A stretch of DNA of 64,000 nt from contig NZ_CP017755.1 in assembly GCF_001854325.1 (NCBI RefSeq), positions 1,550,001 through 1,614,000 of the forward strand. Direction: 5' to 3'. The DNA is from Cupriavidus malaysiensis. GTDB lineage: Bacteria > Pseudomonadota > Gammaproteobacteria > Burkholderiales > Burkholderiaceae. Made by a program: the position numbers and the translations under genes. Shown piece after piece: positions 40,319 through 62,262 of this stretch; within the stretch, counting starts at the first letter, position 1; each line of letters opens with the position of its first letter. Below the pieces are notes generated by a model. The model searched no databases. It was not told where the DNA came from and worked only from the letters and a program-made list of their open reading frames with translations.

Positions 40319-40981
40319 ATGACTCAATACGATTCCCACGTGCAGCGGCTGCGCCGGCTTGACTGCTGCGCGGTTTCCGATGCGCTCGACAAATTGCGCC
40401 TTCCCGGTGTGGTGACAGGGCTGCCGCAGCGCTCCGGCGCCGGACGCATCGCCGGACGCGCCGTTACCGTCAAGCTCGGCACCGGCGCGCCACCGGAAGG
40501 CCCGGCGCGCCATCTGGGTTGCACCGCGATCGAGGCGGCCGGTCCCGACAACGTGATCGTGGTCGAGCAGCGCAGCGGCGTCGAGGCCGGCAGCTGGGGT
40601 GGCTTACTGTCGCTGGGCGCCAAGGTGCGCGGCGTGGCTGGCGTGGTCGCCGACGGCCCGGTGCGCGATATCGACGAAGCCATCGGCTTCGACTTCCCGG
40701 TGTTCAGCCGCGGGTTGACGTCGCTGACGGCGCGTGGGCGCGTGGTCGAGAAAGGTACCAACGTGGCCGTCGAGGTAGGCCACGTGACGGTTCATGCCGG
40801 CGATTACGTGCTGGCGGACCGTAGCGCGGTGATCTTCATCTCGTCCCAGGACATCGAGCGCGTGCTCGAAACGGCGGAGGCCATCGTGCTCAAGGAAGCT
40901 GCAATGTCCAAGGCGATCCTGGCCGGGACGCCGATTGGCGAGGTCATGGGCGGCAACTACGAACACATGCTGCAGAGCTGA
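40319..40981 (+). CDS. RraA/LigK-family aldolase-like protein 1
   Basis: A 220-aa member of the RraA-like superfamily. In aromatic pathways, members (LigK, ProA, HMG aldolase) split 4-carboxy-4-hydroxy-2-oxoadipate or 4-hydroxy-4-methyl-2-oxoglutarate to pyruvate and an oxoacid using a divalent metal. The metal/substrate motif appears as VVADGPVRD. It follows the LigB-like dioxygenase after 53 bp and is first of three tandem homologues. The start is an ATG after a short AC-rich stretch (AACACGGAG repeated). Confidence 0.88.
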   Translation: MTQYDSHVQRLRRLDCCAVSDALDKLRLPGVVTGLPQRSGAGRIAGRAVTVKLGTGAPPEGPARHLGCTAIEAAGPDNVIVVEQRSGVEAGSWGGLLSLGAKVRGVAGVVADGPVRDIDEAIGFDFPVFSRGLTSLTARGRVVEKGTNVAVEVGHVTVHAGDYVLADRSAVIFISSQDIERVLETAEAIVLKEAAMSKAILAGTPIGEVMGGNYEHMLQS

Positions 40982-40997
40982 GGAGGAGCAGGACATC

Positions 40998-41660
40998 ATG
41001 AGCCAGAAAGAAGACATCAACATTGAACGGGCCGGCAGGCTGGATACCGCCACACTGAGCGACGCGCTCGACAAGCTCGGGATCGCCGGGCAGTGCTACC
41101 GCATCCAGGCGCGCGGCGAAGGCTTCGCCATGGCGGGCCGCGCCTTTACGCTCCAGTACGGCCCGGCGGCCAATCCGCCCGGCACGGTGGGCGACTACAT
41201 CGACGACGTGCCGCCCGGCAGCGTGCTGGTGCTGGACAACGGCGGGCGCGACAACGCCACCGTATGGGGTGACATCCTGACCGAGATCGCCCACCGCCGC
41301 GGCATCGCAGGCACGGTGATCGACGGTGTCTGCCGCGACGTGGCGCTGTGCCGCAAGCTGGGCTATCCGGTGTTCAGCAAAGGCCATTGGATGCGCACCG
41401 GTAAGGATCGCGTGCAGGTGGAAGCGACCAACGTCCCGGTCAACATCGGTGACGCGCGGGTGCAGCCCGGCGACATCGTGCGGGGTGATGCGGATGGCGT
41501 GGTGGTCATTCCACGTGAACACGAGGCCGCGGTGCTGGATACCGCCGAAGCGGTGGAGCGCGCCGAGGAATCGATCCGCGAGGCTGTGCGTGGTGGCATG
41601 CGCCTCGACGAGGCGCGCCGGCAGTTCCGTTATCACCAACTGCAGACCAAGGGAGCCTGA
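40998..41660 (+). CDS. RraA/LigK-family aldolase-like protein 2
   Basis: Also 220 aa, with TVIDGVCRD as the metal/substrate motif and HWMRTGKDRVQVEA later in the chain. The start ATG has AGGAGGAG upstream. It is clearly diverged from its neighbours, so the three copies are not a recent triplication. It may act on a different hydroxy-oxo acid or form a hetero-oligomer with them. Confidence 0.88.
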   Translation: MSQKEDINIERAGRLDTATLSDALDKLGIAGQCYRIQARGEGFAMAGRAFTLQYGPAANPPGTVGDYIDDVPPGSVLVLDNGGRDNATVWGDILTEIAHRRGIAGTVIDGVCRDVALCRKLGYPVFSKGHWMRTGKDRVQVEATNVPVNIGDARVQPGDIVRGDADGVVVIPREHEAAVLDTAEAVERAEESIREAVRGGMRLDEARRQFRYHQLQTKGA

Positions 41661-41662
41661 GC

Positions 41663-42325
41663 ATGAAGGAACACGACGCCGCGTCCACCACGCGGACAGC
41701 ATTCGAGCGGGTGGCGCCGGCGCTGGTGGAGGCGGCGCGTGCGCTGCCGACCGCCACGCTGCATGAGGCCGGCGGCAAGGCCGGGGCCCTGCCGAGTGCC
41801 ATCAAGCCGGTGGCCCCGTCCTTCCGGCTGAGCGGCCCGGCCCTGACCGTGCACTCACCGGGCGGCGACAACCTGTGGCTGCACCGCGCGCTGGAGATCG
41901 CCCGGCCCGGCGATGTGCTGGTGGTACATGCCAGCGGCGTCTTCGAGCATGGTTACTGGGGCGAGATCATGACTACCGCCGCCAAGGTGAAAGGCCTCGG
42001 CGGCCTGGTCATCGACGGCTGCGTGCGCGATGGTGTGCTGCTCGAGGAAATCGGTTTTCCGGTGTTCGCGCGTGGCTTGTGCATCCGCGGGACCGGCAAG
42101 GACTATGGCGCCATCGGCTGGCTCAATGAGCCGGTGCTGATCGGCGATGTGAGCGTGGCCGCGGGCGACCTGGTGGTCGGCGATGCCGATGGCGTAGTCG
42201 TGCTGGCGCGCGAGCGTGCCGAGGCAGTGGTGGCGAAGGCGCGCCAGCGCGAACTGGACGAGGCGGCCATCCTCGCGCGCGTGCAGGCGGGTGAGTCGAC
42301 CATGCAGATTTATGGCTTTCACTGA
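41663..42325 (+). CDS. RraA/LigK-family aldolase-like protein 3
   Basis: Third 220-aa homologue, starting 2 bp after the second. LVIDGCVRD keeps the Arg-Asp pair, GDNLWLHRALEIARPGDVLVV and GYWGEIMTTAAK match characterised CHA/HMG aldolases best of the three, and FARGLCIRGTGKDYG is typical of that group. This copy is my best candidate for the actual LigK-type aldolase releasing pyruvate and oxaloacetate. Confidence 0.9.
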   Translation: MKEHDAASTTRTAFERVAPALVEAARALPTATLHEAGGKAGALPSAIKPVAPSFRLSGPALTVHSPGGDNLWLHRALEIARPGDVLVVHASGVFEHGYWGEIMTTAAKVKGLGGLVIDGCVRDGVLLEEIGFPVFARGLCIRGTGKDYGAIGWLNEPVLIGDVSVAAGDLVVGDADGVVVLARERAEAVVAKARQRELDEAAILARVQAGESTMQIYGFH

Positions 42326-46373: not shown

Positions 46374-46954
46374 TCACCGCCAGGCAGGATGGCGCGGTGA
46401 GCGGCGCAGATCCGCTACCCTGACGGCCCATGTGGCGTATTGCCTCGGATTGCGCGCACGCCCGGCCCGGGCCGCCCCGGGCGGTCTCCCAGGCAGGCTT
46501 TGCTGGCGGCGGAAGCGGTTCGATCGGTGCCCACCATCCGTCGTCGGTGATCGGCTTGCCCATCCCCTCTGTCCTGTTCTCACAACGGATGAGGTTAACA
46601 GGTCCGCAGGCCCGCAGGCCCGCCTTGCAGGTTCGCCTTGAGTACCCAGCAACTCTTTTTGAAACGGCTTCCTGGTTCTCCACGAATTCAAGACTCAGGA
46701 CACTAGCGCCCTGTATCGCGATGTCGTCGACATGCGTCGATCAGGTAGGCGCGCGGCGCGCGCCTTGGCTACAATGGCGACCCGTCGCGGCGCAGGGGCG
46801 GAGGCCGGCGCGGCCGCTGCACCGGATTGGCGCATGACGGCATGTCCGGTGCGCTCCGGGCGCGCCCGCCGACCGCGGACAGCCGCGCACCGCCATTGGC
46901 CGGCGCTCGGCCATGCCCGCCTCTCACTCCGAACCCGCCTGCAGGCGCGATCCC
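46374..46954. other. 580-bp intergenic region with promoter candidate
   Basis: This region separates the GntR gene from the ExbB-like gene. It holds the transposase-like remnant described separately, the sequence CAGGACACTAG at ~46697, and a possible extended -10 element TGGCTACAAT at 46766-46775. That element could drive the ExbB/DUF2149/CobN-like operon. No cobalamin riboswitch consensus is seen here. Confidence 0.4.
46470..46563 (-). pseudogene. Possible remnant of an IS5-family transposase N-terminus
   Basis: The minus strand encodes MGKPITDDGWWAPIEPLPPP, resembling the conserved DEQWALIEPLLPPP start of IS5-family transposases, after which resemblance is lost. No terminal inverted repeats or target duplications were found. 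It may be a short leftover of an old insertion. Confidence 0.3.
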
Positions 46955-47611
46955 ATGGAAAGCATCGTCATCGAGATCTTCTACCGCCTGTCGACGGCAT
47001 TCTTCTGGCCGGTGGCGGTGGCGCTGCTGGTGTTGTTCGCGCTGTCGCTGGCCGACCTCGGCGCGCTGCTGGTGCAGGCGCGGCGGCGCGCGCACACCGC
47101 CGCCACCGACCTGCCGGCGGTGGCGAACGCGCTGGCGGCGCGCTTGCCGGCGCCCGGCAGCGGCCGCTCGGCCAGCCTCGACGACGTCGCGCTGTCTCCC
47201 TCGCTGGCACGCTTCTGGGCCCTGCTGCAGCAACGGCTGGCCCAGCTCGATTCGCACGAGCACCTCGACCTGTGGCTGGACGAGACGCTGCAGCGCGAGG
47301 AGATCCGCATCGCCAACCGCCTCGACCTGTCGCGCACCCTGGTGCGCATCGCGCCCATGCTGGGGCTGGCCGGCACCATCATCCCGCTCGGGCCGGCGCT
47401 GCAGTCGCTGCTGTCGGGCGACATGGGCAGCATGGTCAGCCATCTGGTGGTCGGCTTCGGCGCCGTCGTGTGCGGGCTGGTGCTGGGTGGCATCGCCTAC
47501 GTGCTGACGCTGACGCGCGAGCGCTGGGCACGCGCCGACCTGAAGGAGATGGAGAACCTCAGCGAACTGGTGCTGCGGGCCCTGCCGGCCGGCGCGGGGG
47601 CGGCCGCCTGA
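46955..47611 (+). CDS. MotA/TolQ/ExbB proton-channel family protein (HmuU-like)
   Basis: A 218-aa inner-membrane protein with three predicted helices: ~12-32, ~130-150 (APMLGLAGTIIPLGPAL) and ~165-188. The middle helix carries the conserved TolQ/ExbB pattern. Such proteins form proton-driven motors with an ExbD/TolR-like partner. The following gene (DUF2149, one helix) could be that partner; it overlaps by TGATG. The order ExbB-like, DUF2149, membrane-anchored CobN-like matches the hmuU-hmuV-hmuS order I know from Bacteroidetes heme-uptake operons. Confidence 0.85.
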   Translation: MESIVIEIFYRLSTAFFWPVAVALLVLFALSLADLGALLVQARRRAHTAATDLPAVANALAARLPAPGSGRSASLDDVALSPSLARFWALLQQRLAQLDSHEHLDLWLDETLQREEIRIANRLDLSRTLVRIAPMLGLAGTIIPLGPALQSLLSGDMGSMVSHLVVGFGAVVCGLVLGGIAYVLTLTRERWARADLKEMENLSELVLRALPAGAGAAA

Positions 47612-48045
47612 TGGCGCGGCCGCTGCAACGCCGCTTCGTGCGGCGCCGCCGCGTGCTGGGCGAGCTGACTTCCATCCACCGCGAGGATCCGCTGGCCGGC
47701 GTCGCCAACCTGTTCGACGCCTCCATCGTCTTTGCCGTGGGCCTGATGGTGGCGCTGATGCAGGCCTTCAGCCTCGCCCAGCTGTTCAACCCCGAGGCGC
47801 AGTTCACCCTGGTCCAGCGCGACCCCCGCACCGGCGAACTGCATTTGACCGAGAAGAACCGCAAGGAGATCAAGGTCAGCCGCATCACGCCCGAGCAGAA
47901 GGCGGGCGAGGGCACGCGGCTGGGCGTGGCGTACCGCCTGCCCGACGGCAGCGTGGTGTACGTGCCCGAGGCCGGCGCTTCGCCTGCCGCCGCCGCCTCT
48001 GCCGCCGCCGCGCCGCTGCAGGCGGCACCTGCCGGCCCGCGCTGA
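47611..48045 (+). CDS. DUF2149 family single-pass membrane protein (HmuV-like)
   Basis: A 144-aa protein. The basic N-terminus is followed by DPLAGVANLFDASIVFAVGLMVALM, which contains the single membrane helix (~36-56), then a periplasmic part (LTEKNRKEIKVSRITPEQKAGEGTRLGVAY) and a Pro/Ala-rich tail. The topology resembles ExbD/TolR, with an Asp at the membrane entry. It is known to me only as DUF2149, commonly next to an ExbB-like gene and a CobN homologue. Confidence 0.85.
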   Translation: MARPLQRRFVRRRRVLGELTSIHREDPLAGVANLFDASIVFAVGLMVALMQAFSLAQLFNPEAQFTLVQRDPRTGELHLTEKNRKEIKVSRITPEQKAGEGTRLGVAYRLPDGSVVYVPEAGASPAAAASAAAAPLQAAPAGPR

Positions 48046-48048
48046 ACC

Positions 48049-51000
48049 GTGCCGCAGGGGCTTCCTCCATACCGCCATCCTGCGGCCGGCCCGGGCCGGT
48101 GGCTGGCATGGCTGGCCTGCCTGCTCTGGCTGGCGTGGCTGCCCGCCGCCTTCGCGGCGCCGGTGCGCGTGCTGGTGGTGACACCGAACACTCACCTGCT
48201 GCCCGCCGCCCTGGCGGCCTTCCAGCGCGCCCATGGCGGGCAGGTGGCCAGCCTTGACTTCACTACCGAGGCACCGGACGCGGCCCGCCTGCAGGCGGCC
48301 GACGTGGTCTACACCTATTACGCGCCGGTCGACGTGCTGCGCCGCATGGCGGACGGCGTGCGGCGCGCGCGCCAGCGTGGCGCGCTGGTGCTGGCGGCGC
48401 CGGCGCAGAGCGCGCAGGCCGCCTGGGGCATCGAACTGGACAGCGCCGCCGGCACGGCCGCGCAGGCGTACTGGGAGGCCGGCGGCAGCGACAACCTGGC
48501 GGGCTTCCTGGCTTATGTGGCGGCCGCGCGCCAGCCGCCGGGCGCGGCAGCCGCGCTGGTGGTGCCGCCGGTGCGGCCGGCGCCGGCGGCGGGTATCTAT
48601 CACCCGCGCGCACCGGGACCGTTCGACAGCCTCGATGCCTACCTGCGCTGGTACCGCCAGGCGGGTCCGGGGCCGGGCGCGCCGCTGGTGGGCATCGCCT
48701 TCTATGCCACCAACTTCCGCCAGGGCGACCTGGCCCAGATCGACACCCTGGTCGACGCGCTCGAACGCGCCGGCATCGGCGCCGTGCCGGTGTTCGGCTG
48801 GCCGCTGTCCAGCCTCGACCGCTGGCTCGCGCAGGACGGCCGCACGCCGCTGCGCCTGCTGCTGGCGCTCAACCTGACCATCAGCCGCGACCCGGACAAG
48901 GCCTGGCTGGAGCGCCAGGGCCTGCACACGCTCAACCTGATCGCCACGCGCGACAGCCGGGCGGCCTGGCAGGCCGACGTGCGCGGCATCGCCGGCGAAC
49001 GCTTGCCGATGCTGCTGAATACGCCGGAGCGCAACGGCGCCAGCGAACCCATCCTGTTCTCCACCCAGGAGGAGGTGGGCGGGGCCCGCGCCAGCGCCGC
49101 CGTGCCCGAGCGCGTCGACGCGGCGGTGGCGCGCGTGCGGCGCTGGCTGGCGCTGCAGGACAAGCCCGCGGCGGACAAGCACATCGCCATCCTGTACTAC
49201 AACAACCCGCCCGGGCGCGGCAATATCGGCGCCAGTTACCTGGCCACGCTGCCTTCCCTGCGCGCCATCCTGCAACGCCTGCACGAGGCCGGCTACGACA
49301 GTGGCGACAACCTGCCGGACACGGCGACGCTGACCGCGCTGCTGGAGGCGAGCGGGCGCAATGTCGAGACGTGGTCGCCCGGCGAGCTGGCGCGCATGCA
49401 GGGGCAGGGCCGGCTCACGGTGCTGCCGCTGGCACAGTACCGCGCCTGGTTCGCGCAACTGCCGCCGGCCTTCCGCGCCGCGGTGCTGCGCGCCTGGGGG
49501 CCGCCCGAACGCAACCCGCTGATGCTGGCGGACGACGGGCGGGGCGGGCTGGGCTTCGTCATCCCGGGGGTGCGCTTCGGCAAGCTTTTCCTCGGCCCGC
49601 AGCCGCTGCGCTCCACCTTCGAACGGGCGATGGACACCACCCACGATACGGTGACGCCGCCGCCGCACTCCTATATCGCCGCCTATCTCTGGTACCGCCA
49701 TGCCTTCGGTGCGGATGCGATGGTGCACGTGGGCCGCCACGGCACGCTGGAGTGGCTGCCGGGCAAGCAGGTGGCGCAGGCGGGCGATGACAGCGCGGAA
49801 GTGCTGCTGGGCGACCTGCCCAATGCCTACTACTACATCCAGGATGGCGGTGGCGAGGCGATCCAGGCCAAGCGGCGCGGCGCGGCGGTGCTGGTGAGCC
49901 ACCTGGCGCCGTTGCTGGCCCGCGCCGGCTGGCCTGCGGCGCTGGCCGGGCTGGACCAGGCCATCGAGCAGGAGGAGGCGACCCGCGAGACCTCGCCGGA
50001 GCTGGCGCGGGTGTACCGCGAGCAGGCGCTGGCGCAGGTGCGCGCGCTCGGGCTCGAGCGCCAGCTCGGACTCGGCAGCGAGGCGCCCTGGGAGGAGATC
50101 GAGCCCGCCGTCCATGCCTTCCTGCACCGTGTCGAGGCGGAGCCGATTCCGCTCGGCATCCACGCGCTCGGCGAGCTGCCGGACGAGGCCGCGCAGCGCG
50201 ATGGACTGGCCACCATGCTGGCCGGACGCTTCAGCAGCCAGGAAGCCGAGGCCATCGGGCCGTCCGCCTTCGCGCGCTGGGCGGCCGACCTGGTGGCCGG
50301 GCGCGAGCCGGCGGCACCGGCCGAGGCAGTGCCGCCGCCGCTGGAAGCCAAGGCCGCCGAGGCCTTGGCGGCGGGCCGGCAGTGGCTGGCCGCGCTGCGC
50401 GCTTCGCCGCGCGACGAACTCGACGGGCTGGTCACGGTGCTGTCGGGACGCTACCTGCCCAGCGCGCCGCTGGGCGATCCGGTGCGCACGCCGCAGAGCC
50501 TGCCGAGCGGGCGCAACCTGCACGCCTTCGATGGCGCCCTGATTCCCACCCCCGCCGCGTGGGAACTGGGCAAGACGCTGGCGGGGCAGACCCTGGGGCG
50601 CTACCAGCGCGAACATGGCAGGCTGCCGGAGTCGGTCTCGATGGTGCTGTGGTACGGCGAGACCGAGCGCCACCAGGGCGCGCTGGAAAGCGAGGCGCTC
50701 TACCTGATGGGAGTGGAGCCGGTGTGGAATGCGCGCGGCGTGGTCGACGACGTGCGCCTGATCCCCGACGCCGAACTGGGGCGGCCGCGCGTCAACGTGC
50801 TGTTCACCATCTCCGGCATCTACCGCGACGGCTTCGGCGACAAGGTCGCCCTGCTCGACAAGGCGGCGCGCCTGGCCGCCGCCGCCGGCGACAACGCGCT
50901 GAGCCGGCACGACCGGGCCGTGACGGCCGCTCTGCTTGCCGCCGGCACCGAGGCCGGCCTGGCCGGCAGCCTGGCGCGCGCGCGGGTGTTCGCCGCCAAG

Positions 51001-52167
51001 CCCGGCAACTATGCCATCGGCGTGTCGCAGATGGTGGAGCAGAGCCGCGACACCGAGGCGCCCGATGCGGTGGCGGCGCAGTACCTGCGCTACATGAACT
51101 TCGCCTATTCGGCCGAGGGCTGGGGCACCAGCGCGCCGCAGGCGCTGGCCAGCCACCTCAAGGACAACCAGGCGGTGCTGTTTTCGCGCGCCAGCACCTT
51201 GTACGGCGCGCTCGACAACGACGACACCTACCAGTACGCGGGCGGGCTGGCAGCCGCCACCCGCGCCGCCGGCGGGCAGGCGCCGGCCTTCTGGCTGCAC
51301 AACCTGCGCACGGCCGGCGAGGCGCGCACCCTCGATGCCCGCGCCTGGCTGGCCACCGAGCTGAACGCGCGCAACTGGAACCCGAAGTGGATCGCCGCCA
51401 TGCAGGCCTCCGGCTATGCCGGCGCGCGCGAGATGTTCAAGGAGATCGAGCACCTGTACGGCTTCCAGGCGGCCACGCCGGAACAGATGTCGGGCCAGTT
51501 CTGGCAGCGCACCTATGACGTCTACGTGGCCGACAGCGAAGGCCTGGGCATGGAGGCCTTCTTCCGCGCCAGCAATCCGCACGCCCAGCAGTGGATCCTG
51601 TCGCGGCTGCTGGAAGTCGACCGCCAGGGCAGCTACCGCTTCAGCGCGGCGCAGCGCGCCGACATGGTGCGCCGCTATGTGGCATCGGTGGCGCGCGACG
51701 GGCTCTCGTGCTCGGCCAACACCTGCGGCAATCCGGCGCTGATGCGCTACATCGAGGGGCTCGGGCGCGCGGCGGACACCGATGCGCAGGCCATGCGCCG
51801 CTTTGCCGGTGCGCTGGCGCAGGCGACCGCGGCGGGACCTGCCGCCGCGCCCGCGGGCACCGGGGCGGCGCGGGGCGGGCAGGCCGTGCCGGCGCGGCAG
51901 GCGAGGGACACACGGCAGGCGCTGCGCCGGCAGTCCGCCGCGCCGCCGCGCTCCGCGGCGAAGGCGGCCGATCCGCCGCGGCCGGCCGCGCGCGGCACGC
52001 CGGTGCGCGGGCAGGTGATGGAGACGCGCGTGCTGCGGCTCGACGCGCCGGCCCGGCCTGTGGCCGGCGGCGCGGCAGGCGCGCTCGGCGTCGGCGCGCT
52101 GATGCTGCTGGCGATCGGCGCCGGGGCCCTGGCCGAGTGGCGGCGCGGCCGGCGCCGGCGCCCGTGA
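48049..52167 (+). CDS. CobN-like chelatase, exported and membrane-anchored (HmuS-like)
   Basis: A 1372-aa protein of the CobN/BchH large-subunit family. It starts at GTG 3 bp after the DUF2149 stop. Residues ~1-36 are a clear signal peptide (WLAWLACLLWLAWLPAAFAA), and the C-terminus has a membrane helix (~1338-1358) then RRGRRRRP, so the catalytic body should face the periplasm. VHVGRHGTLEWLPGK (~557-571) is the CobN signature. A cytosolic cobaltochelatase would not be secreted. The topology instead fits HmuS-type proteins implicated in removing iron from heme. The direction of metal transfer and the tetrapyrrole are not shown. Confidence 0.88.
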   Translation: MPQGLPPYRHPAAGPGRWLAWLACLLWLAWLPAAFAAPVRVLVVTPNTHLLPAALAAFQRAHGGQVASLDFTTEAPDAARLQAADVVYTYYAPVDVLRRMADGVRRARQRGALVLAAPAQSAQAAWGIELDSAAGTAAQAYWEAGGSDNLAGFLAYVAAARQPPGAAAALVVPPVRPAPAAGIYHPRAPGPFDSLDAYLRWYRQAGPGPGAPLVGIAFYATNFRQGDLAQIDTLVDALERAGIGAVPVFGWPLSSLDRWLAQDGRTPLRLLLALNLTISRDPDKAWLERQGLHTLNLIATRDSRAAWQADVRGIAGERLPMLLNTPERNGASEPILFSTQEEVGGARASAAVPERVDAAVARVRRWLALQDKPAADKHIAILYYNNPPGRGNIGASYLATLPSLRAILQRLHEAGYDSGDNLPDTATLTALLEASGRNVETWSPGELARMQGQGRLTVLPLAQYRAWFAQLPPAFRAAVLRAWGPPERNPLMLADDGRGGLGFVIPGVRFGKLFLGPQPLRSTFERAMDTTHDTVTPPPHSYIAAYLWYRHAFGADAMVHVGRHGTLEWLPGKQVAQAGDDSAEVLLGDLPNAYYYIQDGGGEAIQAKRRGAAVLVSHLAPLLARAGWPAALAGLDQAIEQEEATRETSPELARVYREQALAQVRALGLERQLGLGSEAPWEEIEPAVHAFLHRVEAEPIPLGIHALGELPDEAAQRDGLATMLAGRFSSQEAEAIGPSAFARWAADLVAGREPAAPAEAVPPPLEAKAAEALAAGRQWLAALRASPRDELDGLVTVLSGRYLPSAPLGDPVRTPQSLPSGRNLHAFDGALIPTPAAWELGKTLAGQTLGRYQREHGRLPESVSMVLWYGETERHQGALESEALYLMGVEPVWNARGVVDDVRLIPDAELGRPRVNVLFTISGIYRDGFGDKVALLDKAARLAAAAGDNALSRHDRAVTAALLAAGTEAGLAGSLARARVFAAKPGNYAIGVSQMVEQSRDTEAPDAVAAQYLRYMNFAYSAEGWGTSAPQALASHLKDNQAVLFSRASTLYGALDNDDTYQYAGGLAAATRAAGGQAPAFWLHNLRTAGEARTLDARAWLATELNARNWNPKWIAAMQASGYAGAREMFKEIEHLYGFQAATPEQMSGQFWQRTYDVYVADSEGLGMEAFFRASNPHAQQWILSRLLEVDRQGSYRFSAAQRADMVRRYVASVARDGLSCSANTCGNPALMRYIEGLGRAADTDAQAMRRFAGALAQATAAGPAAAPAGTGAARGGQAVPARQARDTRQALRRQSAAPPRSAAKAADPPRPAARGTPVRGQVMETRVLRLDAPARPVAGGAAGALGVGALMLLAIGAGALAEWRRGRRRRP

Positions 52168-52356
52168 GCGGCGCGCCGCCGCGCCCATGCCGCAGGCGGG
52201 GTGGACAGTCCGCGGCGATGTCATTATTCTGGTCGCCTTCGCCGGCCGGCGGCACCCCGCGTTCCCGCGCCGCGCGCCCCTTCCCCTGATCCATTCGATC
52301 CGATCGATCCATTCCCCGCCTTCGGGCCCGTGTGTCGGCGCCCGTGGAGTCCCAGC

Positions 52357-53451
<1,095 letters not shown>

Positions 53452-53461
53452 GGGCACCCGC

Positions 53462-56400
53462 ATGCACCTGCTGTCGACCCGGCCCGGCGGCTTCGTCGAG
53501 GACGGGGCCGGCGTGCTGCGCATCGAGCAGACGCCGGCGCAGATCGTCATCCTGAGCGCGGCCGATACGACACTGTCGCTGCTGGCCGGTGTCTATCCGC
53601 GCCTGGGGCCCGGCTACCCGAGCGTGCGGCTGGCCAACCAGATGTACCTGCGCCAGCCGGCCTCGCTCGACCTGTACGTCGACGAGGTGCTGCAGCACGC
53701 GCGCGTGGTGGTGGTCGACCACCTGGTCGGCGGCAGCGACTGGTCATATGGCCTGGAGCGGCTGCCCGAACTGGCGCGTGCGCGCGGCCAGTTGCTGGTG
53801 ATGCTGTCGGGCGACCTGGCCGAGGACGCCAACCTCGCGCGCCGCGGCAATGCGCCGGCGGCGCTGTCGCATGCGCTCTGGCAATACCTGCGCGAGGGCG
53901 GTGCCGCCAACGCCGAGCAGTTCTACCGCTGCCTGGCCCACCACGCCTTCGGCCTGGGCGCGCCGGCGCTGCCGCCGCAGGCGCTGCCGGAGGCTGCGCT
54001 CTACCATCCGGCGCACGGCGTGGCGACCGCGGCCGACTGGCAGCGCACCTGGCGGGAGCGCGGCGTGGCCGGCGCGCCGGTGGTGGCGCTGCTGTTCTAC
54101 CGCGCCCACCTGCAGGCGGGCAATACCGAGGTGTTCGAGGCCCTGGCCGAGGCCCTGCTGGCAGCCGGGCTGTGCCCGCTGCCGCTGGCGGTCACATCGC
54201 TCAAGGCACCGCTGGCGCGCGAGGTCCTGCAATACCTGTGCGCGGAACATGCGGTCGCGCTGGTGCTGAACACCACGGCCTTCTCGGTGGCCTCGCTGGA
54301 TGGTGGCGCCGAGGCGGAAGCGCCGCTGGCCGGCGACGCACCGGTGCTGCAATTGATCCTGAGCGGCGGCAATCGCGAGGACTGGCTTGCCGACGAGCAG
54401 GGCCTGGGTACGCGCGACGTGGCCATGCAGGTGGCGCTGCCCGAGGTGGACGGCCGCATCATCACGCGCGCGGTCAGCTTCAAGGGCCTGGCCTGGCGCT
54501 GCCCGCACACCGAGGTGGACGTGGTGCGCTACCAGCCGGACGCCGAGCGGGTGCGTTTCGTCGCCGAGCTGGCGCGGCGCTGGTGCCGGCTGCGCAGCTT
54601 GCCCAATGCCGACAAGCGGGTGGCGCTGGTGCTGGCCAACTACCCCGCCAGCGAAGGCCGCATCGGCAACGGCGTCGGGCTGGACACGCCGGCCTCGATG
54701 GTGCGCATCCTGGCCATGCTGCGCGAGCAGGGCTACACCACCGGCGCCTTGCCCGCCGACGGCGCCGCGCTGCTGTGCGGCCTTACCGCCGGCATCACCA
54801 ACGACCCCGCGCAGCACGCGCTGCGCCCCGCCTTCCAGAGCCTGGCGCTGGACGACTACGAGGCGTGGCTGGCCACCTTGCCGGAAGGCAGCCGTGCCGC
54901 CATCTCGGCGCGCTGGGGCGAACCGGCGGCCGATCCGATGGTGCGGCAGGGCCGTTTCATGATCGCGGGCGTGCGCAGCGGCCGGCTCTTCATCGGCATC
55001 CAGCCCGCGCGCGCCTACGGTGTCGACGACTACGCCAGCTACCACGATGCCGAACTGGTGCCGCCGCACGGCTACCTGGCCTTCTACTGCTGGCTGCGCC
55101 AGGTGTTCGGCTGCGATGCCGTGGTGCACGTGGGCAAGCATGGCAACCTGGAGTGGCTGCCCGGCAAGAGCGTGGCGCTGTCGCCTTCCTGCTGGCCCGA
55201 TGCCATCCTCGGGCCGCTGCCCCATCTCTACCCCTTCATCGTCAACGATCCCGGCGAAGGCGCGCAGGCCAAGCGGCGCACGCAGGCCGTCATCATCGAC
55301 CACCTGATGCCGCCGCTGACGCGCGCGGAGAACTATGGCCCGCTGCAGGACCTGGAACGGCTGGTGGACGAGTACTACGAAGCGCTGGCGGTCGATCCGC
55401 GGCGCGCGCGGCTGCTGCGCAAGGAGATCCTGGCGGGCATCGTCGGCCAGCAGCTGCACCGCGAGCTGGGCTTCGACGGACAGCCGGCCGCCGCCGACGA
55501 GGATGAACTGCTGCGGCGTACCGATGCCTACCTGTGCGAGCTGAAGGAGTCGCAGATCCGCGACGGCCTGCACGTCTTCGGCCAGTCGCCGCAGGGCCGC
55601 CAGCGGCGCGACACGCTGGCCGCGCTGGCGCGCTTCCCGGCCGGCGACGGCAAGGGCGCGCAGGCCGGCCTGCTGACCGCGCTGGCCGCCGACCTCGGCC
55701 TGGGCGCGGGCTTCGACCCGCTCGACGCCGATTGGGCGGCGCCGTGGCAGGGCCCGCGCCCGGCGGCCCTGCAGGCGGTCAGCGGCGAGCCATGGCGCCA
55801 CCATGGCGACACGCGCGAGCGTCTCGAAGCGCTTGCGCTGGAACTGCTGGCGGGGCTCGACGCCGAGGACAGGGGCGCGCCGGCGGCGCTGCCCTGGACC
55901 GCGCAGGTGCTGGCGCGGCTGGGCGGCGACGTGCTGCCGCGCCTGGACGCCTGCGGCGAACAGGAGCTGACGCAGCTCGCGCGCGGGCTGGCCGGCCGCT
56001 TCGTGCCGCCGGGCCCGAGCGGCGCGCCGTCGCGCGGCCGTCCCGACGTGCTGCCGACGGGGCGCAACTTCTATTCCGTGGACACGCGCGCCGTGCCCAC
56101 CCGCATGGCGTGGACACTGGGTTTGCGCGCCGCCGACCAGCTCATCGAACGGCATCTGCAGGAACACGGCGACTACCCGCGCGCCATCGGCCTGTCGATC
56201 TGGGGCACCGCCACCATGCGCACCGGCGGCGACGACTTCGGCCAGGCCCTGGCGCTGATGGGGGTGCGCCCGCGCTGGGCGCCGGGCAGCCACCGCGTGG
56301 TGGATTTCGAGATCCTGCCGGCCACCGTGCTGGGGCGCCCGCGCGTGGACGTCACGCTGCGCGTGTCGGGATTCTTCCGCGATGCCTTCGCCAATCTCGT

Positions 56401-57262
56401 CAAGCTGTTCGACGCGGCGGTACGCGCCGTGGCCGCGCTGGACGAGCCCCCCGAGGTCAATCCGCTCGGCGCGCGCGTGCGCGCCGAGCAGGCCCGCCTC
56501 GAGGCGCAGGGCCTGGACGGCGCGGAGGCGGCCGAGCGGGCGGCTTGGCGCGTGTTCAGCGCGCGCCCCGGCGGCTATGGCACCGGCCTGCAGGAACTGG
56601 TCGATGCGCGCCGCTGGCAGGACGATGCCGATCTCGCCCATGCCTACCTGCAGGCCGGCGGCTACGCCTACGGGCAGCGCGCCGACGGCATCGAGGCCCG
56701 CGCGGATTTCGGCGCGCGCCTGGCCGGGCTCGACGCCGTGGTGCAGAACCAGGACAACCGCGAGCACGACCTGCTGGATGCCAACGACTACTACCAGTTC
56801 CAGGGCGGCATGGCGGCCGCCGTGCGGCACCTCGGCGGCGCGCAGCCGGCGCTCTACCATGGCGACTTCAGCTATCCCGCGGCGCCGCGCGTGCGCACGC
56901 TGGGCGAGGAGATCGCCCGCGTGATCCGTGCGCGCGTGGTCAATCCCAAGTGGCTGGCGGGCGTGCGCCGGCACGGCTACAAGGGCGCCTTCGAGATGGC
57001 CGCCACCGTCGACTACCTGTTCGGCTACGACGCCACCACGCGCGTGGTGGCCGACCACCAGTACGCGCTGGTGGCCGACGCCTACCTCAACGATCCCGTC
57101 AACCGCGCCTTCCTGGCGCAACACAATGCGCGCGCGCTGCACGCGATCTGCGAGCGCCTGCTCGAAGCCATGCAGCGTGGCCTCTGGCAGGAGCCCGGCG
57201 CCTACCGCGCGCAGCTCGAGGCGCACCTGCTCGATGCCGAGCAGCGCCTGGAAGGAAGCTGA
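53462..57262 (+). CDS. cobN: Cobaltochelatase large subunit CobN
   Basis: A 1266-aa cytosolic protein that binds the corrin ring and inserts cobalt into hydrogenobyrinate a,c-diamide in aerobic cobalamin synthesis, powered by an AAA+/VWA partner pair. It has no signal peptide or membrane helix. VHVGKHGNLEWLPGK (~555-569) and NDPGEGAQAKRRTQAVIIDH are CobN signatures. The partner genes (ChlI-type ATPase and VWA) follow after 6 bp, and CobW lies 10 bp upstream, so this is one operon. It is ~35% alike by eye to the secreted CobN-like protein. Confidence 0.94.
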   Translation: MHLLSTRPGGFVEDGAGVLRIEQTPAQIVILSAADTTLSLLAGVYPRLGPGYPSVRLANQMYLRQPASLDLYVDEVLQHARVVVVDHLVGGSDWSYGLERLPELARARGQLLVMLSGDLAEDANLARRGNAPAALSHALWQYLREGGAANAEQFYRCLAHHAFGLGAPALPPQALPEAALYHPAHGVATAADWQRTWRERGVAGAPVVALLFYRAHLQAGNTEVFEALAEALLAAGLCPLPLAVTSLKAPLAREVLQYLCAEHAVALVLNTTAFSVASLDGGAEAEAPLAGDAPVLQLILSGGNREDWLADEQGLGTRDVAMQVALPEVDGRIITRAVSFKGLAWRCPHTEVDVVRYQPDAERVRFVAELARRWCRLRSLPNADKRVALVLANYPASEGRIGNGVGLDTPASMVRILAMLREQGYTTGALPADGAALLCGLTAGITNDPAQHALRPAFQSLALDDYEAWLATLPEGSRAAISARWGEPAADPMVRQGRFMIAGVRSGRLFIGIQPARAYGVDDYASYHDAELVPPHGYLAFYCWLRQVFGCDAVVHVGKHGNLEWLPGKSVALSPSCWPDAILGPLPHLYPFIVNDPGEGAQAKRRTQAVIIDHLMPPLTRAENYGPLQDLERLVDEYYEALAVDPRRARLLRKEILAGIVGQQLHRELGFDGQPAAADEDELLRRTDAYLCELKESQIRDGLHVFGQSPQGRQRRDTLAALARFPAGDGKGAQAGLLTALAADLGLGAGFDPLDADWAAPWQGPRPAALQAVSGEPWRHHGDTRERLEALALELLAGLDAEDRGAPAALPWTAQVLARLGGDVLPRLDACGEQELTQLARGLAGRFVPPGPSGAPSRGRPDVLPTGRNFYSVDTRAVPTRMAWTLGLRAADQLIERHLQEHGDYPRAIGLSIWGTATMRTGGDDFGQALALMGVRPRWAPGSHRVVDFEILPATVLGRPRVDVTLRVSGFFRDAFANLVKLFDAAVRAVAALDEPPEVNPLGARVRAEQARLEAQGLDGAEAAERAAWRVFSARPGGYGTGLQELVDARRWQDDADLAHAYLQAGGYAYGQRADGIEARADFGARLAGLDAVVQNQDNREHDLLDANDYYQFQGGMAAAVRHLGGAQPALYHGDFSYPAAPRVRTLGEEIARVIRARVVNPKWLAGVRRHGYKGAFEMAATVDYLFGYDATTRVVADHQYALVADAYLNDPVNRAFLAQHNARALHAICERLLEAMQRGLWQEPGAYRAQLEAHLLDAEQRLEGS

Positions 57263-57268
57263 GTCACC

Positions 57269-58456
57269 ATGAGCCTGCCCCAACCCTTTCCATTCAGCGC
57301 CCTGGTAGGCCAGGCGCGGCTGCAGCGCGCGCTGATGCTGGCGGCGGTCGATGCCGGCATCGGCGGCGTGCTGGTCGGCGGCCCGCGCGGCACGGCCAAG
57401 TCCACCGCCGCGCGCGCGCTCGCGGAGCTGCTGCCGCAGGGGCGCTTCGTGCCCCTGCCGCTCGGCGCCAGCGAAGAGCAACTGGTCGGCAGCCTCGACC
57501 TCGACCACGCCCTGCGCGGCGGTGAGGTGCGCTTTGCGCCCGGCCTGCTGGCGCGCGCCCACGAAGGCGTGCTGTACGTGGACGAGGTCAACCTGCTGCC
57601 CGACCACCTGGTCGACCTGCTGCTCGACGCCGCCGCCAGCGGCGTCAACGTGGTGGAGCGCGACGGGGTCTCGCACCAGCATGCGGCGCGCTTCGTGCTG
57701 GTCGGCACCATGAATCCGGAAGAGGGCGAGCTGCGACCCCAGTTGCTGGACCGCTTCGGGCTGGCGCTGATGCTGGAGAACCTCACCGACGCCGCGCAGC
57801 GCCAGGCCGTGGTCAAGGCGCGCCTGGCCTTCGATGCCGATCCGGCGGCGTTCCGCGCCGCGGTGGCGGGGCGCCAGGCGGCGCTGGTGGCGCAGATCGC
57901 GCGTGCCCGCGCAGGGCTGGCGGCGCTGCGCTTCGACGATGCCGTGCATGGGCGGGTCAGTGCCTTGTGCCTGGCGGCAGGCGTCGACGGGCTGCGCGCC
58001 GACCTCGTCATGCTGCGCGCGGCGCGCGCGCTGGCGGCTCTGCAGGGCGATGCCGCCATCTCCACGGCACATGTCGACAGCGTGGCCGAGCTGGTGCTGC
58101 ATCACCGGCGCCAGGCCGGCGCGCCGGCTCCGGCCGGTGATGGGGAGGATGACGGGCAGGGTGACGGGCAGGGGAGCGGACGCGATCGCGGGCAAGACGG
58201 CCATCCGGCCGCAGCGGCCGCAGCGGCCGCAGCGGCCGCAGCGGCCGTTCCTGGCCGCCCGGCGCCAGGGCAGGGCGAAGCCCCCGCGGGCGCTGCCGGC
58301 GGCTGGCAGCCCGATCCAGAGGGCAATCCCTGGGGCGCCATGCCGCCGCCGGCCGGCGGCACGGCCGTGGCGCCGGCGGCGGTCGCGCCGGTGGCGCCCT
58401 TCACCCGCCTGAAGGACCCGGCCTACGCCAAGGACGCCCCGCCAAAAAAAGCCTGA
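57269..58456 (+). CDS. ChlI-type AAA+ ATPase subunit of the cobaltochelatase (zero-frame product)
   Basis: A 395-aa product with Walker A GGPRGTAKST (~38-47), Walker B VLYVDEVN (~104-111) and sensor motif GTMNPEEGELRPQLLDR, as in magnesium/cobalt chelatase I subunits. From ~280 onwards a long Gly/Asp/Gln/Ala linker follows with an in-frame 9-bp repeat. The frame ends at TGA 58454-58456, directly after a run of seven A residues. A -1 shift there continues into the VWA domain, so one gene can make both the short ATPase (CobS/ChlI role) and the long ChlD-like fusion of ~615 aa. Confidence 0.92.
   Translation: MSLPQPFPFSALVGQARLQRALMLAAVDAGIGGVLVGGPRGTAKSTAARALAELLPQGRFVPLPLGASEEQLVGSLDLDHALRGGEVRFAPGLLARAHEGVLYVDEVNLLPDHLVDLLLDAAASGVNVVERDGVSHQHAARFVLVGTMNPEEGELRPQLLDRFGLALMLENLTDAAQRQAVVKARLAFDADPAAFRAAVAGRQAALVAQIARARAGLAALRFDDAVHGRVSALCLAAGVDGLRADLVMLRAARALAALQGDAAISTAHVDSVAELVLHHRRQAGAPAPAGDGEDDGQGDGQGSGRDRGQDGHPAAAAAAAAAAAAAVPGRPAPGQGEAPAGAAGGWQPDPEGNPWGAMPPPAGGTAVAPAAVAPVAPFTRLKDPAYAKDAPPKKA
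58207..58242 (+). repeat. In-frame 9-bp tandem repeat (GGCCGCAGC)x4 coding poly-Ala
   Basis: Four perfect 9-bp units encode a run of Ala in the linker of the chelatase ATPase. Being a multiple of three, copy changes alter only linker length. It also contains overlapping GCGGCCGC sites. Confidence 0.75.
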
Positions 58457-58503
58457 GCCACCAGGCCGCCGACGCCGGGATCCGGCGCAGCGGCCACCGG
58501 TGG
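58444..58503 (+). promoter_or_regulatory. Probable programmed -1 ribosomal frameshift site
   Basis: Zero frame reads CCA-AAA-AAA-GCC-TGA, giving the slippery heptamer A-AAA-AAA (58444-58450) and an immediate stop. After a 7-nt spacer a nested hairpin begins: CCACC (58458-58462) with GGTGG (58499-58503), GGCCGC (58464-58469) with GCGGCC (58490-58495), and CGCCGG (58473-58478) with CCGGCG (58482-58487). A -1 slip joins the ATPase to SLSHQAADAGIRR... and the VWA domain. Frameshifting in chlD-type chelatase genes has been reported to my knowledge. Confidence 0.8.
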
Positions 58504-59115
58504 CAAGCTCCCCGCCTGCCCGCGCCCGGCATCCTGCCCGGCTCCCGCGTGCACTGGCCGCGCACGCTCGCGGCCAAGGGCACGCAGCCGCTCGCGCGCG
58601 GCCACCTGCGCTGGCGTCCAGCCGCCTCGCGCGGCGGCGTGCTGCACTGCTTCCTGCTGGACTGCTCGGCATCGATGCTGCCGGGCGAACGGCTGGCGCT
58701 GGCCAAGGGTGTGCTGCTGCGCCTGCTGGAGCGTGCCTACCAGGCACGCGCCGAGGTGGCGCTGGTGTGCTTCGGCGGCGGCAGCGCGGAAGTCCGCCTG
58801 CAGCCGGCGCGGGCCCGCCCGTGGAGCGATGCCTGGATCCGCCCCATCGCCGGCGGCGGTGGCACGCCGCTGGCGCTCGGCACGGAGCGCGCCGGCCGGT
58901 TGCTGGCACAGGCCGCGCGCCGCCATCCGGCACAGCAGCGCTGGCTGTGGCTGCTCAGCGATGGCCGCAGCAGCGAGCAGCCGGCGCGTCCGCGCTGGGC
59001 GGATGCGGTGATGGTGGTGGACTTCGAACGGCAGGCGGTGCCGCTGGGGCGCTGCCGGCGGCTGGCGGAGGATTGGGAGGGGGAGTACCTGGTGGCGGAT
59101 CGGCTGATCGGCTGA
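58450..59115 (+). CDS. chlD: VWA-domain half of ChlD-like cobaltochelatase subunit (reached by -1 frameshift)
   Basis: 221 codons in the -1 frame. The sequence SLSHQAADAGIRRSGHRWQAPRLP is open from the slippery site and looks like the usual linker before the VWA domain. The MIDAS motif DCSAS is in FLLDCSASMLPG, with a conserved Gly/Thr loop (GGGGTPL) and DGRSS later. The domain ends VADRLIG. No ATG with a ribosome-binding site exists near the start; GTG 58549 is the only plausible independent start and would remove ~32 conserved-looking residues. VWA-AAA+ pairs drive metal insertion by CobN. Confidence 0.82.
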   Translation, partial: SLSHQAADAGIRRSGHRWQAPRLPAPGILPGSRVHWPRTLAAKGTQPLARGHLRWRPAASRGGVLHCFLLDCSASMLPGERLALAKGVLLRLLERAYQARAEVALVCFGGGSAEVRLQPARARPWSDAWIRPIAGGGGTPLALGTERAGRLLAQAARRHPAQQRWLWLLSDGRSSEQPARPRWADAVMVVDFERQAVPLGRCRRLAEDWEGEYLVADRLIG

Positions 59116-59160
59116 CCGGCTGATCGGCTGATCGGCTGATCGGCTGATCGGCTGATCGGC
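59103..59160 (+). repeat. Octanucleotide tandem repeat (GCTGATCG, ~7 copies) at the chlD end
   Basis: About seven units of an 8-bp repeat, one with a T-to-C change, begin in the last codons of the VWA frame and run through its TGA stop into non-coding DNA. As the period is not a multiple of three, slippage could alter the last few residues, but a stop occurs in each of the possible frames soon after. Confidence 0.75.
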
Positions 59161-59298
59161 CGCTAGGACTGCCGCCCTGGGGTCTTGCGGCAAGTGCTTC
59201 TTAGAGCCTTTCTTGCGGGTTGACGCAGGCACCATCCAGCGCTGTTCCTGCCTCGAACCTGATAGGCTAGACCAGTCTGTAGACCAGATGAGGTCAGC

Positions 59299-59541
59299 AT
59301 GTTTGTCGAAGTCGGTTCCTACGATGCCAAGACCAGGCTCCCCGAGTTGCTTCGGAAGGTGGAGCAAGGCGAGCGATTCACCAATGCCCAGCGTGGGCGC
59401 CCGATTGCGGATCTGGTGCCGAGCGCTGACAACGCACGCCACAGCCGTGAGGAGGCCGTGGCGGCAATGCGCTCGATGAAGCGCCTAGTCGATGTCGCTC
59501 CCGACACGCTCGAACAATGGGTCGAGGAAGGCCGCCGATGA
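59299..59541 (+). CDS. Phd/YefM-family antitoxin
   Basis: An 80-aa protein: FVEVGSYDAKTRLPELLRKVEQGERFTNAQRGRPIADLVP is the typical Phd fold that binds DNA and neutralises a PIN-domain toxin via its C-terminal helix (LEQWVEEGRR). GAGG precedes the ATG. Its stop overlaps the start of a truncated toxin gene (ATGA). It is probably an orphaned antitoxin now. Confidence 0.85.
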   Translation: MFVEVGSYDAKTRLPELLRKVEQGERFTNAQRGRPIADLVPSADNARHSREEAVAAMRSMKRLVDVAPDTLEQWVEEGRR

Positions 59542-59654
59542 CCTTGGTGCTCGATGCCTCCATGGCCCTTGCCTGGCTGTTCCAGAGCGCGGATCCGGCC
59601 CAGGTGGCATTGGCAGAGGCGATGCGCAATGCCGGTGGCGCAGTGTTCGAATGA
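59538..59654 (+). pseudogene. Truncated VapC-type PIN-domain toxin
   Basis: Thirty-eight codons encode MTLVLDASMALAWLFQSAD, the canonical start of VapC toxins with its first metal-binding Asp, and stop after GGAVFE. The remaining ~95 residues with the other acidic active-site residues are absent; the following DNA is the 3' side of a hydrolase gene. A deletion probably removed the toxin body. Confidence 0.75.
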
Positions 59655-60885: not shown

Positions 60886-61956
60886 TCACCCCAGCTTCAC
60901 CTCGATCTCGTCATAGCGCTGCACGCGGTACACCACCATCGAGACCAGCCAGCTCAGCACGAACACGCCGATGATCACATAGCCCAGCATGCCGAAATGT
61001 GCGTTGAGCGCGCCGACCACGTCCCACAGGCCGCCTTCCAGGCCGAGCTTGTCGGCGATCAGGCCGAGTGCTTCGATGCCGCCGATGACCACCGCGACGA
61101 TCACCGAGACCAGCGTGATGGTCATGTTGTAGTAGAGCTTGCGGATCGGCTTGGTGAAGGCCCAGCCGTAGGCGCCGAGCATGAGGATGCCATCGGTGGT
61201 GTCGACCAGCGACATGCCGGCGGTGAACAGCGCCGGGAACACCATGATGGTCCAGAACGGCACGCCCTTGGCGGCTTCCGCGGCGGAGAGGCCGAACAGG
61301 GCCACCTCGGTGGCGGTGTCGAAGCCCAGGCCGAACAGCAGGCCCATCGGGAACAGGTGCCAGCTGCGGCTGGCCAGGCGGAACAGCGGGCGGAACCAGC
61401 GCGCCAGCACGCCGCGCTCGTTGAGCAGCAGGTCGAGGTCCTGGGCGCGCAGCGTCTCGCCGCGCTTGACGGCGCGGAAGGCACGCCAGACCGAGACCAG
61501 GATCAGCAGGTTGAAGAAGGCCAGCAGGAACAGGAACAGCGCCGAGACGCTGGTGCCGATCAGGCCGCCGACCGCCTTCATCTCGCCGAAATGCGATTGC
61601 AGGGCGGCCGCCGCGATGGCGATGCCGATCGACATCAGCGTGACCACGGTGGAATGGCCGAGCGAGAAGAAGAAGCCCACCGCGACCGGCCGCTTGCCTT
61701 CGGCCATCAGTTTGCGCGTGACATTGTCGATGGCCGCGATATGGTCGGCGTCGACGGCGTGGCGCAGCCCCAGCGTATAGGCCAGCACGGCGGATGCCAG
61801 CAGCACCGGGTGGTCGCGGAAGGCGGCCAGGGCCCAGATCCAGGCCCCGGCATTGGCGGCGATCAGGATCGCGTAGAGCGCCACGGTCTTGCGGCGCACG
61901 TCGGTGGCTTCGTCATTGAAGATGCTGGCGATCAGGCGGAACGGGTGGGCTGGCAT
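60886..61956 (-). CDS. NiCoT-family cobalt/nickel permease (HoxN/NixA type)
   Basis: A 356-aa inner-membrane transporter with about eight helices. RHAVDADHIAAIDN is the HX4DH metal-selectivity motif in helix II. LGHSTVV, LGFDTATE and the LFTAGMSLVDTTDG stretch are further NiCoT signatures. Because a cobalamin riboswitch precedes it, cobalt import for B12 synthesis is the likely role and is shut off when cobalamin is plentiful. ATG 61956 gives the family length; the open frame reaches 62235 through the riboswitch 3' leader and is not credible. Confidence 0.93.
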   Translation of the reverse strand: MPAHPFRLIASIFNDEATDVRRKTVALYAILIAANAGAWIWALAAFRDHPVLLASAVLAYTLGLRHAVDADHIAAIDNVTRKLMAEGKRPVAVGFFFSLGHSTVVTLMSIGIAIAAAALQSHFGEMKAVGGLIGTSVSALFLFLLAFFNLLILVSVWRAFRAVKRGETLRAQDLDLLLNERGVLARWFRPLFRLASRSWHLFPMGLLFGLGFDTATEVALFGLSAAEAAKGVPFWTIMVFPALFTAGMSLVDTTDGILMLGAYGWAFTKPIRKLYYNMTITLVSVIVAVVIGGIEALGLIADKLGLEGGLWDVVGALNAHFGMLGYVIIGVFVLSWLVSMVVYRVQRYDEIEVKLG

Positions 61957-62177
61957 GGGGCGCAGGGCAGATGCGGGGTCAGGGAGCGAAGAGACGGTGC
62001 CGAAGCGGGGCGGGCATGCCTGCCCAGGCAGGGAGGCCATGAGAAGCGCCGCGACGGCGGCGGGGTGTGCTGGGCGCGCGGGCGGCGCGCCGAAGGGGCT
62101 GGCTTGCGGTCTGTCTTCATCGTGTCGTGCCCGGGCATCCCCGCCCGGGCGTGGCAACTGGTGCCGGAAAGGACGAT

Positions 62178-62262
62178 GAAGCCGCGGCCGTGCGCGGGGC
62201 ATGCCCCGGGGCTGCCCCGCGGCAGGGCCCGGCACGACACCCGGCCGCCCGTCCGCGGCTTC
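62178..62262 (-). promoter_or_regulatory. Long GC-rich helix downstream of riboswitch (candidate expression platform)
   Basis: GAAGCCGCGG (62178-62187) is complementary to CCGCGGCTTC (62253-62262), enclosing further palindromes such as GGGGCATGCCCC. It begins 11 nt after the riboswitch core on the minus strand, where a terminator or alternative helix would lie. About 220 nt of leader still separate it from the permease ATG. The switching mechanism is inferred. Confidence 0.45.

Follow-up and report, generated by a model that had tools for sequence, protein, structure and literature searches.

A predicted programmed −1 frameshift in an fs-chlD-type chelatase gene next to cobN in Cupriavidus malaysiensis

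The ChlI-like ATPase gene that begins 6 nt past the end of cobN in Cupriavidus malaysiensis is very probably an fs-chlD gene, in which −1 slippage would give rise to two chelatase subunits, of 395 aa and 615 aa, that would work with CobN. It is found in a 64-kb window, by which is meant the whole stretch of 64,000 nucleotides that was analysed, with a GC content of 69%; the features of the locus are listed in Table 1. The earlier note on this DNA stated that frameshifting had been reported for chlD genes, and this is indeed the case in the available text of two papers (PMC3711429, PMC9227772). As the fs-chlD mechanism is already published, the gene in the window is a further member of a known family, and its mechanism is ordinary for chlD genes. 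The additions made here are modest, being the strictness of the run of seven As, the covariation of the basal stem in Burkholderiales-type loci, and the finding of fs-chlD and cobN in the same genomes.

Table 1. Positions of the features at the fs-chlD locus, numbered from the first nucleotide of the window
Feature	Position	Strand	Basis
cobW, upstream of cobN, start picked inside a longer ORF	52294..53451	+	TIGR02475 501.2 bits, cut-off 332.1
cobN, cobaltochelatase large subunit	53402..57262	+	TIGR02257 1574.4 bits, cut-off 822.05
Frame-0 ORF, ChlI-like AAA+ ATPase, short product of 395 aa	57269..58456	+	Pfam Mg_chelatase and AAA_lid_2
Slippery heptamer A_AAA_AAA	58444..58450	+	Present in all 93 distinct −1 loci, the window being one
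Frame-0 stop TGA, one codon past the heptamer	58454..58456	+	Same place in 93/93
Hairpin of 19 predicted pairs, putatively stimulatory, 6 nt past the heptamer	58457..58504	+	RNAfold; basal stem covaries (62 sequences)
−1 frame past the slip, encoding the 221 C-terminal residues of the 615-aa product, with the VWA domain	58450..59115	+	VWA_2, E 1e-7

The ATPase ORF ends CCA AAA AAA GCC TGA, and the seven As are therefore in phase as A_AAA_AAA, with three nucleotides (GCC) separating the heptamer from the stop, as the earlier note had described. From 58450 the −1 frame stays open until a stop at 59113–59115 and takes in the VWA domain, which had also been recognized. The fused product computed from these frames has 394+221 = 615 aa, with the junction PPKK-SLSHQ, so that the lengths originally predicted, 395 aa and about 615 aa, are both recovered. 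When compared with TIGR02442 (putative cobaltochelatase), the fused product gives a single unbroken alignment over positions 1–638 of 641; its score of 474.2 bits falls short of the curated cut-off, 779.45. The best stretch for the ATPase ORF is positions 88–324. The in-frame ChlD-type fusions of TIGR02442 share their domain order with the 615-aa product, but there is no frame change in them. Within the VWA part, the motifs DCSAS, GGGGT, and SDGRS are taken to be a MIDAS-type site.

Only two A or T runs of seven or more are present in the whole window. In the five frames between 48049 and 59115, AAA makes up 3 of 43 Lys codons, two of these three being at the slippery site, and there is no further in-frame A_AAA_AAR in the same five frames. 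Tandem repeats are present in both parts of the gene: a 9-bp unit at 58206–58247, in 4.7 copies with zero mismatches, encodes an Ala-rich linker of the ATPase frame, and an 8-bp unit, GGCTGATC, is present in 8.4 tandem copies at 59094–59160, extending over the stop that ends the VWA frame.

For this gene we infer slippage and its rate, both products, and a chelatase function, in the following form. Ribosomes would translate the ChlI-like ATPase, and those staying in frame would stop at the TGA at 58454, giving the 395-aa product as a small (I/S-type) subunit. The hairpin directly behind the stop may hold a fraction of the ribosomes at A_AAA_AAA, where these, together with both tRNA-Lys, would move back by one base and read SLSHQ onwards in the −1 frame; reading through the VWA domain would then give the 615-aa product as a medium (D/T-type) subunit. 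Together with CobN, both subunits would form the ATP-driven chelatase that inserts cobalt in the aerobic pathway to B12, and the roles proposed to be equivalent to those of CobS and CobT in the CobNST cobaltochelatase would here both be supplied from one ChlI/ChlD-type gene. In dnaX-type −1 frameshifting there is likewise an A-rich heptamer with a downstream hairpin, and a short and a long product, but in dnaX it is the short product that is made by the frameshift, while in fs-chlD here it would be the long one.

Relatives of the gene were chosen by similarity to the VWA part rather than by the A-run. Matches to the VWA part are present in 30 of 119 genomes, source genome included, and the best 80 of 106 loci kept from a scan of named genomes are from Cupriavidus, Paraburkholderia, Burkholderia, Caballeronia, Trinickia, Variovorax, and Andreprevotia. 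The resulting set of 110 loci (the window, L005–L033, and L038–L117) includes these best 80 of 106; tblastn recovered 109 of the 110, L033 not being found at E 1e-4. A shared layout, with exactly seven As in phase, a stop one codon on, and the VWA domain in the −1 frame, is present in 102 of the 110 loci, and removal of nine duplicates leaves 93 distinct −1 loci. All 93, the window included, have the exact in-phase A7 and the stop one codon later, this being TGA in 86, TAG in 6, and TAA in 1, with the base preceding the A-run being C in 76 and T in 17. Elsewhere in these 93 fs-chlD genes AAA accounts for 198 of 661 Lys codons, and there are no other in-frame A-type or T-type slippery heptamers in their ATPase ORFs.

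The fact that the relatives keep the A7, its phase, the stop, and the VWA domain in the −1 frame favours programmed frameshifting. Relatives that lack the A-run and have separate, well-initiated VWA genes, which the earlier note named as the case that would speak against it, are not seen among the 93 distinct loci, and both the layout and the relatives point to the programmed −1 frameshift that the note proposed. L026–L031 and L033 are distant (34–39% identity) and have the VWA domain within open frames of 585–688 aa; L031, which was scored as −1 by script on a weak ATPase match near the end of the locus, was excluded by hand. In the case of L032, one of the 102 −1 loci, there is a stop inside the VWA frame. 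None of nine pattern matches in viral contigs was confirmed as a relative.

Locus L012 has six As, with its linker in yet another frame, and comes from a 97%-complete assembly; this is taken to be an assembly error or decay. Homopolymers are error-prone and L012 may be such a case, which raises the question of whether the arrangement in the window itself reflects an error in sequencing or a frameshift that arose recently by mutation in the homopolymer. The chance of this is, however, vanishingly small, as many different assemblies, contributing 93 distinct loci, show the identical arrangement and the source assembly is 99.99% complete in 3 contigs, and a sequencing error or pseudogene is rejected on the basis of these loci.

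A further possibility is that the VWA part forms a gene in its own right, whose translation would begin past the ATPase stop, either by reinitiation or at a start of its own. The last upstream stop in the VWA frame is at 58162 and the first ATG, GTG, or TTG after it is the GTG at 58549, 33 codons past the shift, in keeping with the original observation that the VWA domain is without a good start of its own. While this GTG is in the VWA frame, and a downstream start lies behind an SD-like 4-mer in 16 of the 93 loci, the commonest SD-backed start position is common to only 4 loci. In 10 of the 93 there is no ATG, GTG, or TTG between the junction and the VWA domain, the start of which is approximate, and 7 of those 10 are also without a start codon within 150 nt upstream. 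A separate gene would, in addition, leave the fixed A7 unexplained, and this explanation is extremely improbable. Under the frameshift reading, a VWA ORF beside cobN is not to be annotated as a separate or a broken gene.

The hairpin predicted by RNAfold begins flush with the stop and its 19 pairs fall into segments of 6+6+1+6. The nested hairpin of the earlier note was found, but its 7-nt spacer and 17 pairs were not, RNAfold giving 6 nt and 19 pairs. A folding energy of −36.5 kcal/mol (z = −4.63) is predicted for the 54 nt past the heptamer, a stability reached by 0 of 200 shuffles. In a wider control, 26 of 5658 segments of 48 nt over cobN-chlID fold at least as stably as the hairpin, the hairpin itself being counted, and the other 25 all start at 58199–58352, in the GC-rich, repeat-rich linker. 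A search of Rfam with 58000–59200 returned 6 matches with E values up to 1, all below the gathering score and none over 58444–58504.

Eight consecutive basal pairs are present in 89 of the 92 distinct loci with a readable hairpin, with seven in two loci and six in the window, so that the check suggested at the outset, conservation of the A-run and the hairpin in relatives, gives a positive outcome for both. The stem starts directly behind the stop in 83 of the 89 eight-pair stems and one base later in the other six (L076, L080, L081, L091, L107, L117). L094 has Ns in the hairpin and was left out of both the hairpin counts and the alignment used for covariation, which contains 62 distinct hairpins, identical ones having been collapsed. 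In this alignment, standard pairing is seen in 97.6% of the 496 cells of the eight basal pairs, compared to 88.3% in shuffles, both-sided changes in the basal stem are seen in 55 cells compared to 9.2, and the covariation score of the basal stem is 0.338 compared to 0.161. None of 500 shuffles reaches the observed value for any of these three, while the other two of the five covariation measures are reached by 8 and 11 of 500, but as kinship alone can lift sequences above shuffles these counts are not probabilities. Versions of the basal stem slid out of register are at most 52.5% paired. Compensation can be seen at pair 17-82, which is A-U in 49 hairpins and U-A in 12, and at pair 18-81, which is C-G in 30, U-A in 29, and U-G in 3. 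As expected for an fs-chlD gene, there appears to be a stimulatory structure downstream of the slippery site, modelled here as a covarying stem.

The stem also bears on transcriptional slippage, in which RNA polymerase would alter the number of As in the mRNA and so join the frames without a ribosomal shift. There is an A homopolymer for this to act upon, but all 93 loci have exactly seven As and none has more, the run is locked in the X_XXY_YYZ phase, and it is accompanied by a covarying stem and a stop at a set distance, which are requirements of a ribosomal signal. A run of this length is also short for efficient polymerase slippage. Slippage of the polymerase is therefore a highly improbable source of the longer product, and slippage of the ribosome is the preferred explanation.

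One further reading goes beyond ribosomal slippage and regards the Burkholderiales stem as a control knob: with the A7 frozen, the stop-flush, compensated stem would set the ratio of ATPase to fusion, and this ratio would possibly respond to metal, polyamine, or corrinoid state. According to this reading, A7 is presumably the weakest A-run length tested in the fs-chlD family. This reading is speculative and rather unlikely to be correct. The locus does in any event offer a compact, strongly conserved cassette in which the boost given by a hairpin to slippage at a short A-run could be tested.

In the named loci (the best 80 of 106), a same-strand cobN match precedes fs-chlD in all 80. Among 60 same-genus genomes, an inferred count that includes the source genome, the VWA part, the ATPase (E 1e-20), and the canonical cobN are present in the same 20; PF02514 scores above 1300 bits in those 20 and below 991 bits in all of the others. 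Within the same family, G064, G067, and G069 have the VWA part, the ATPase, and cobN, while in G066 an in-frame fusion of 680 aa comes after cobN. The source genome contains one VWA of this kind, one close ATPase, and two CobN-type proteins, and a search of it for a second ChlI-like ATPase gave no match stronger than E 3.3e-4.

The earlier note regarded the two products as needed with CobN, of which the co-occurrence is strong and the necessity unproven, there being a CobS/CobT-like pair in the source genome. These genes (L146) are side by side on contig 2 of G000, at about 2613030–2615803, approximately 1 Mb from fs-chlD, and both are below threshold (CobS-like, 518.2 bits with a cut-off of 558.55; CobT-like, 229.8 bits with a cut-off of 759.05). 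The presence of this sub-threshold pair means that exclusive use of fs-chlD in the source genome is unproven, and the pair might serve CobN there. CobS-like matches (E 1e-60) are present in 40 of the 60 same-genus genomes, one of which, G053, has a fragment, and CobT-like matches (E 1e-20) in 39. The pair does not track cobN, since 7 of the 20 genomes carrying both cobN and fs-chlD have CobS-like matches, compared to 33 of the 40 lacking them; CobT-like matches are likewise found in 7 of these 20, and 13 of the 20 are without the pair. The CobS/CobT-like pair as the real partner of CobN is disfavoured, being commoner in the same-genus genomes without cobN and fs-chlD.

In the available text of PMC3711429 (Antonov 2013), the magnesium chelatase cluster contains 23 −1 frameshift genes from six genera, including Burkholderia, and reporter frameshifting is 63, 40, and 10% for three cassettes of the fs-chlD family. 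The 10% cassette is A_AAA_AAA, assayed in E. coli, and its genus is not given in that text. It has been reported that fs-chlD yields both Co-chelatase subunits (PMC9227772, Kuznetsov 2022, available text). The published genes, as far as the accessible text of these two papers goes, and the gene described here share an ATPase and a VWA domain in overlapping frames, a −1 shift at an A-run, a downstream structure, and two chelatase subunits per gene, and there is no difference in kind between them. Among the 110 loci considered here, those retaining the −1 layout all have a run of exactly seven As and show conservation and covariation of the basal stem, whereas in the accessible text of PMC5009743 the A_AAA_AAR site is strongly selected and the sequence of the structure is not strongly conserved in the family. 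The word "frameshift" is absent from the available text of PMC7689651. No paper on this gene in Cupriavidus was found by title or start of abstract, and this instance is not claimed to be unreported. The supply of two chelatase subunits from one gene by recoding is supported here by many more sequences from one order.

Several other genes are present in the window. At 46913–52167 there are, in a row, a MotA/TolQ/ExbB-like gene, a DUF2149 gene, and a second CobN-like protein of 1372 aa, which by eye has a hydrophobic stretch near each end. In Bacteroidetes, hmu operons for heme uptake combine the same three gene types (PMC10434189, available text), which by analogy suggests a role for this trio in tetrapyrrole uptake or metal removal rather than in B12 synthesis. 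A NicO family nickel/cobalt transporter, a plausible supplier of cobalt, is encoded on the minus strand at 60886–62235; such a transporter is near fs-chlD in only 3 of the 80 named loci (best 80 of 106). At 59299–59654 there is a weak Phd/YefM-like antitoxin (20.2 bits, cut-off 29.8) followed by a 38-aa ORF, which has no Pfam match and on visual inspection is similar to the beginning of a PIN-type toxin. Three consecutive RraA/aldolase-like genes, of 220 codons each, are present at 40319–42325.
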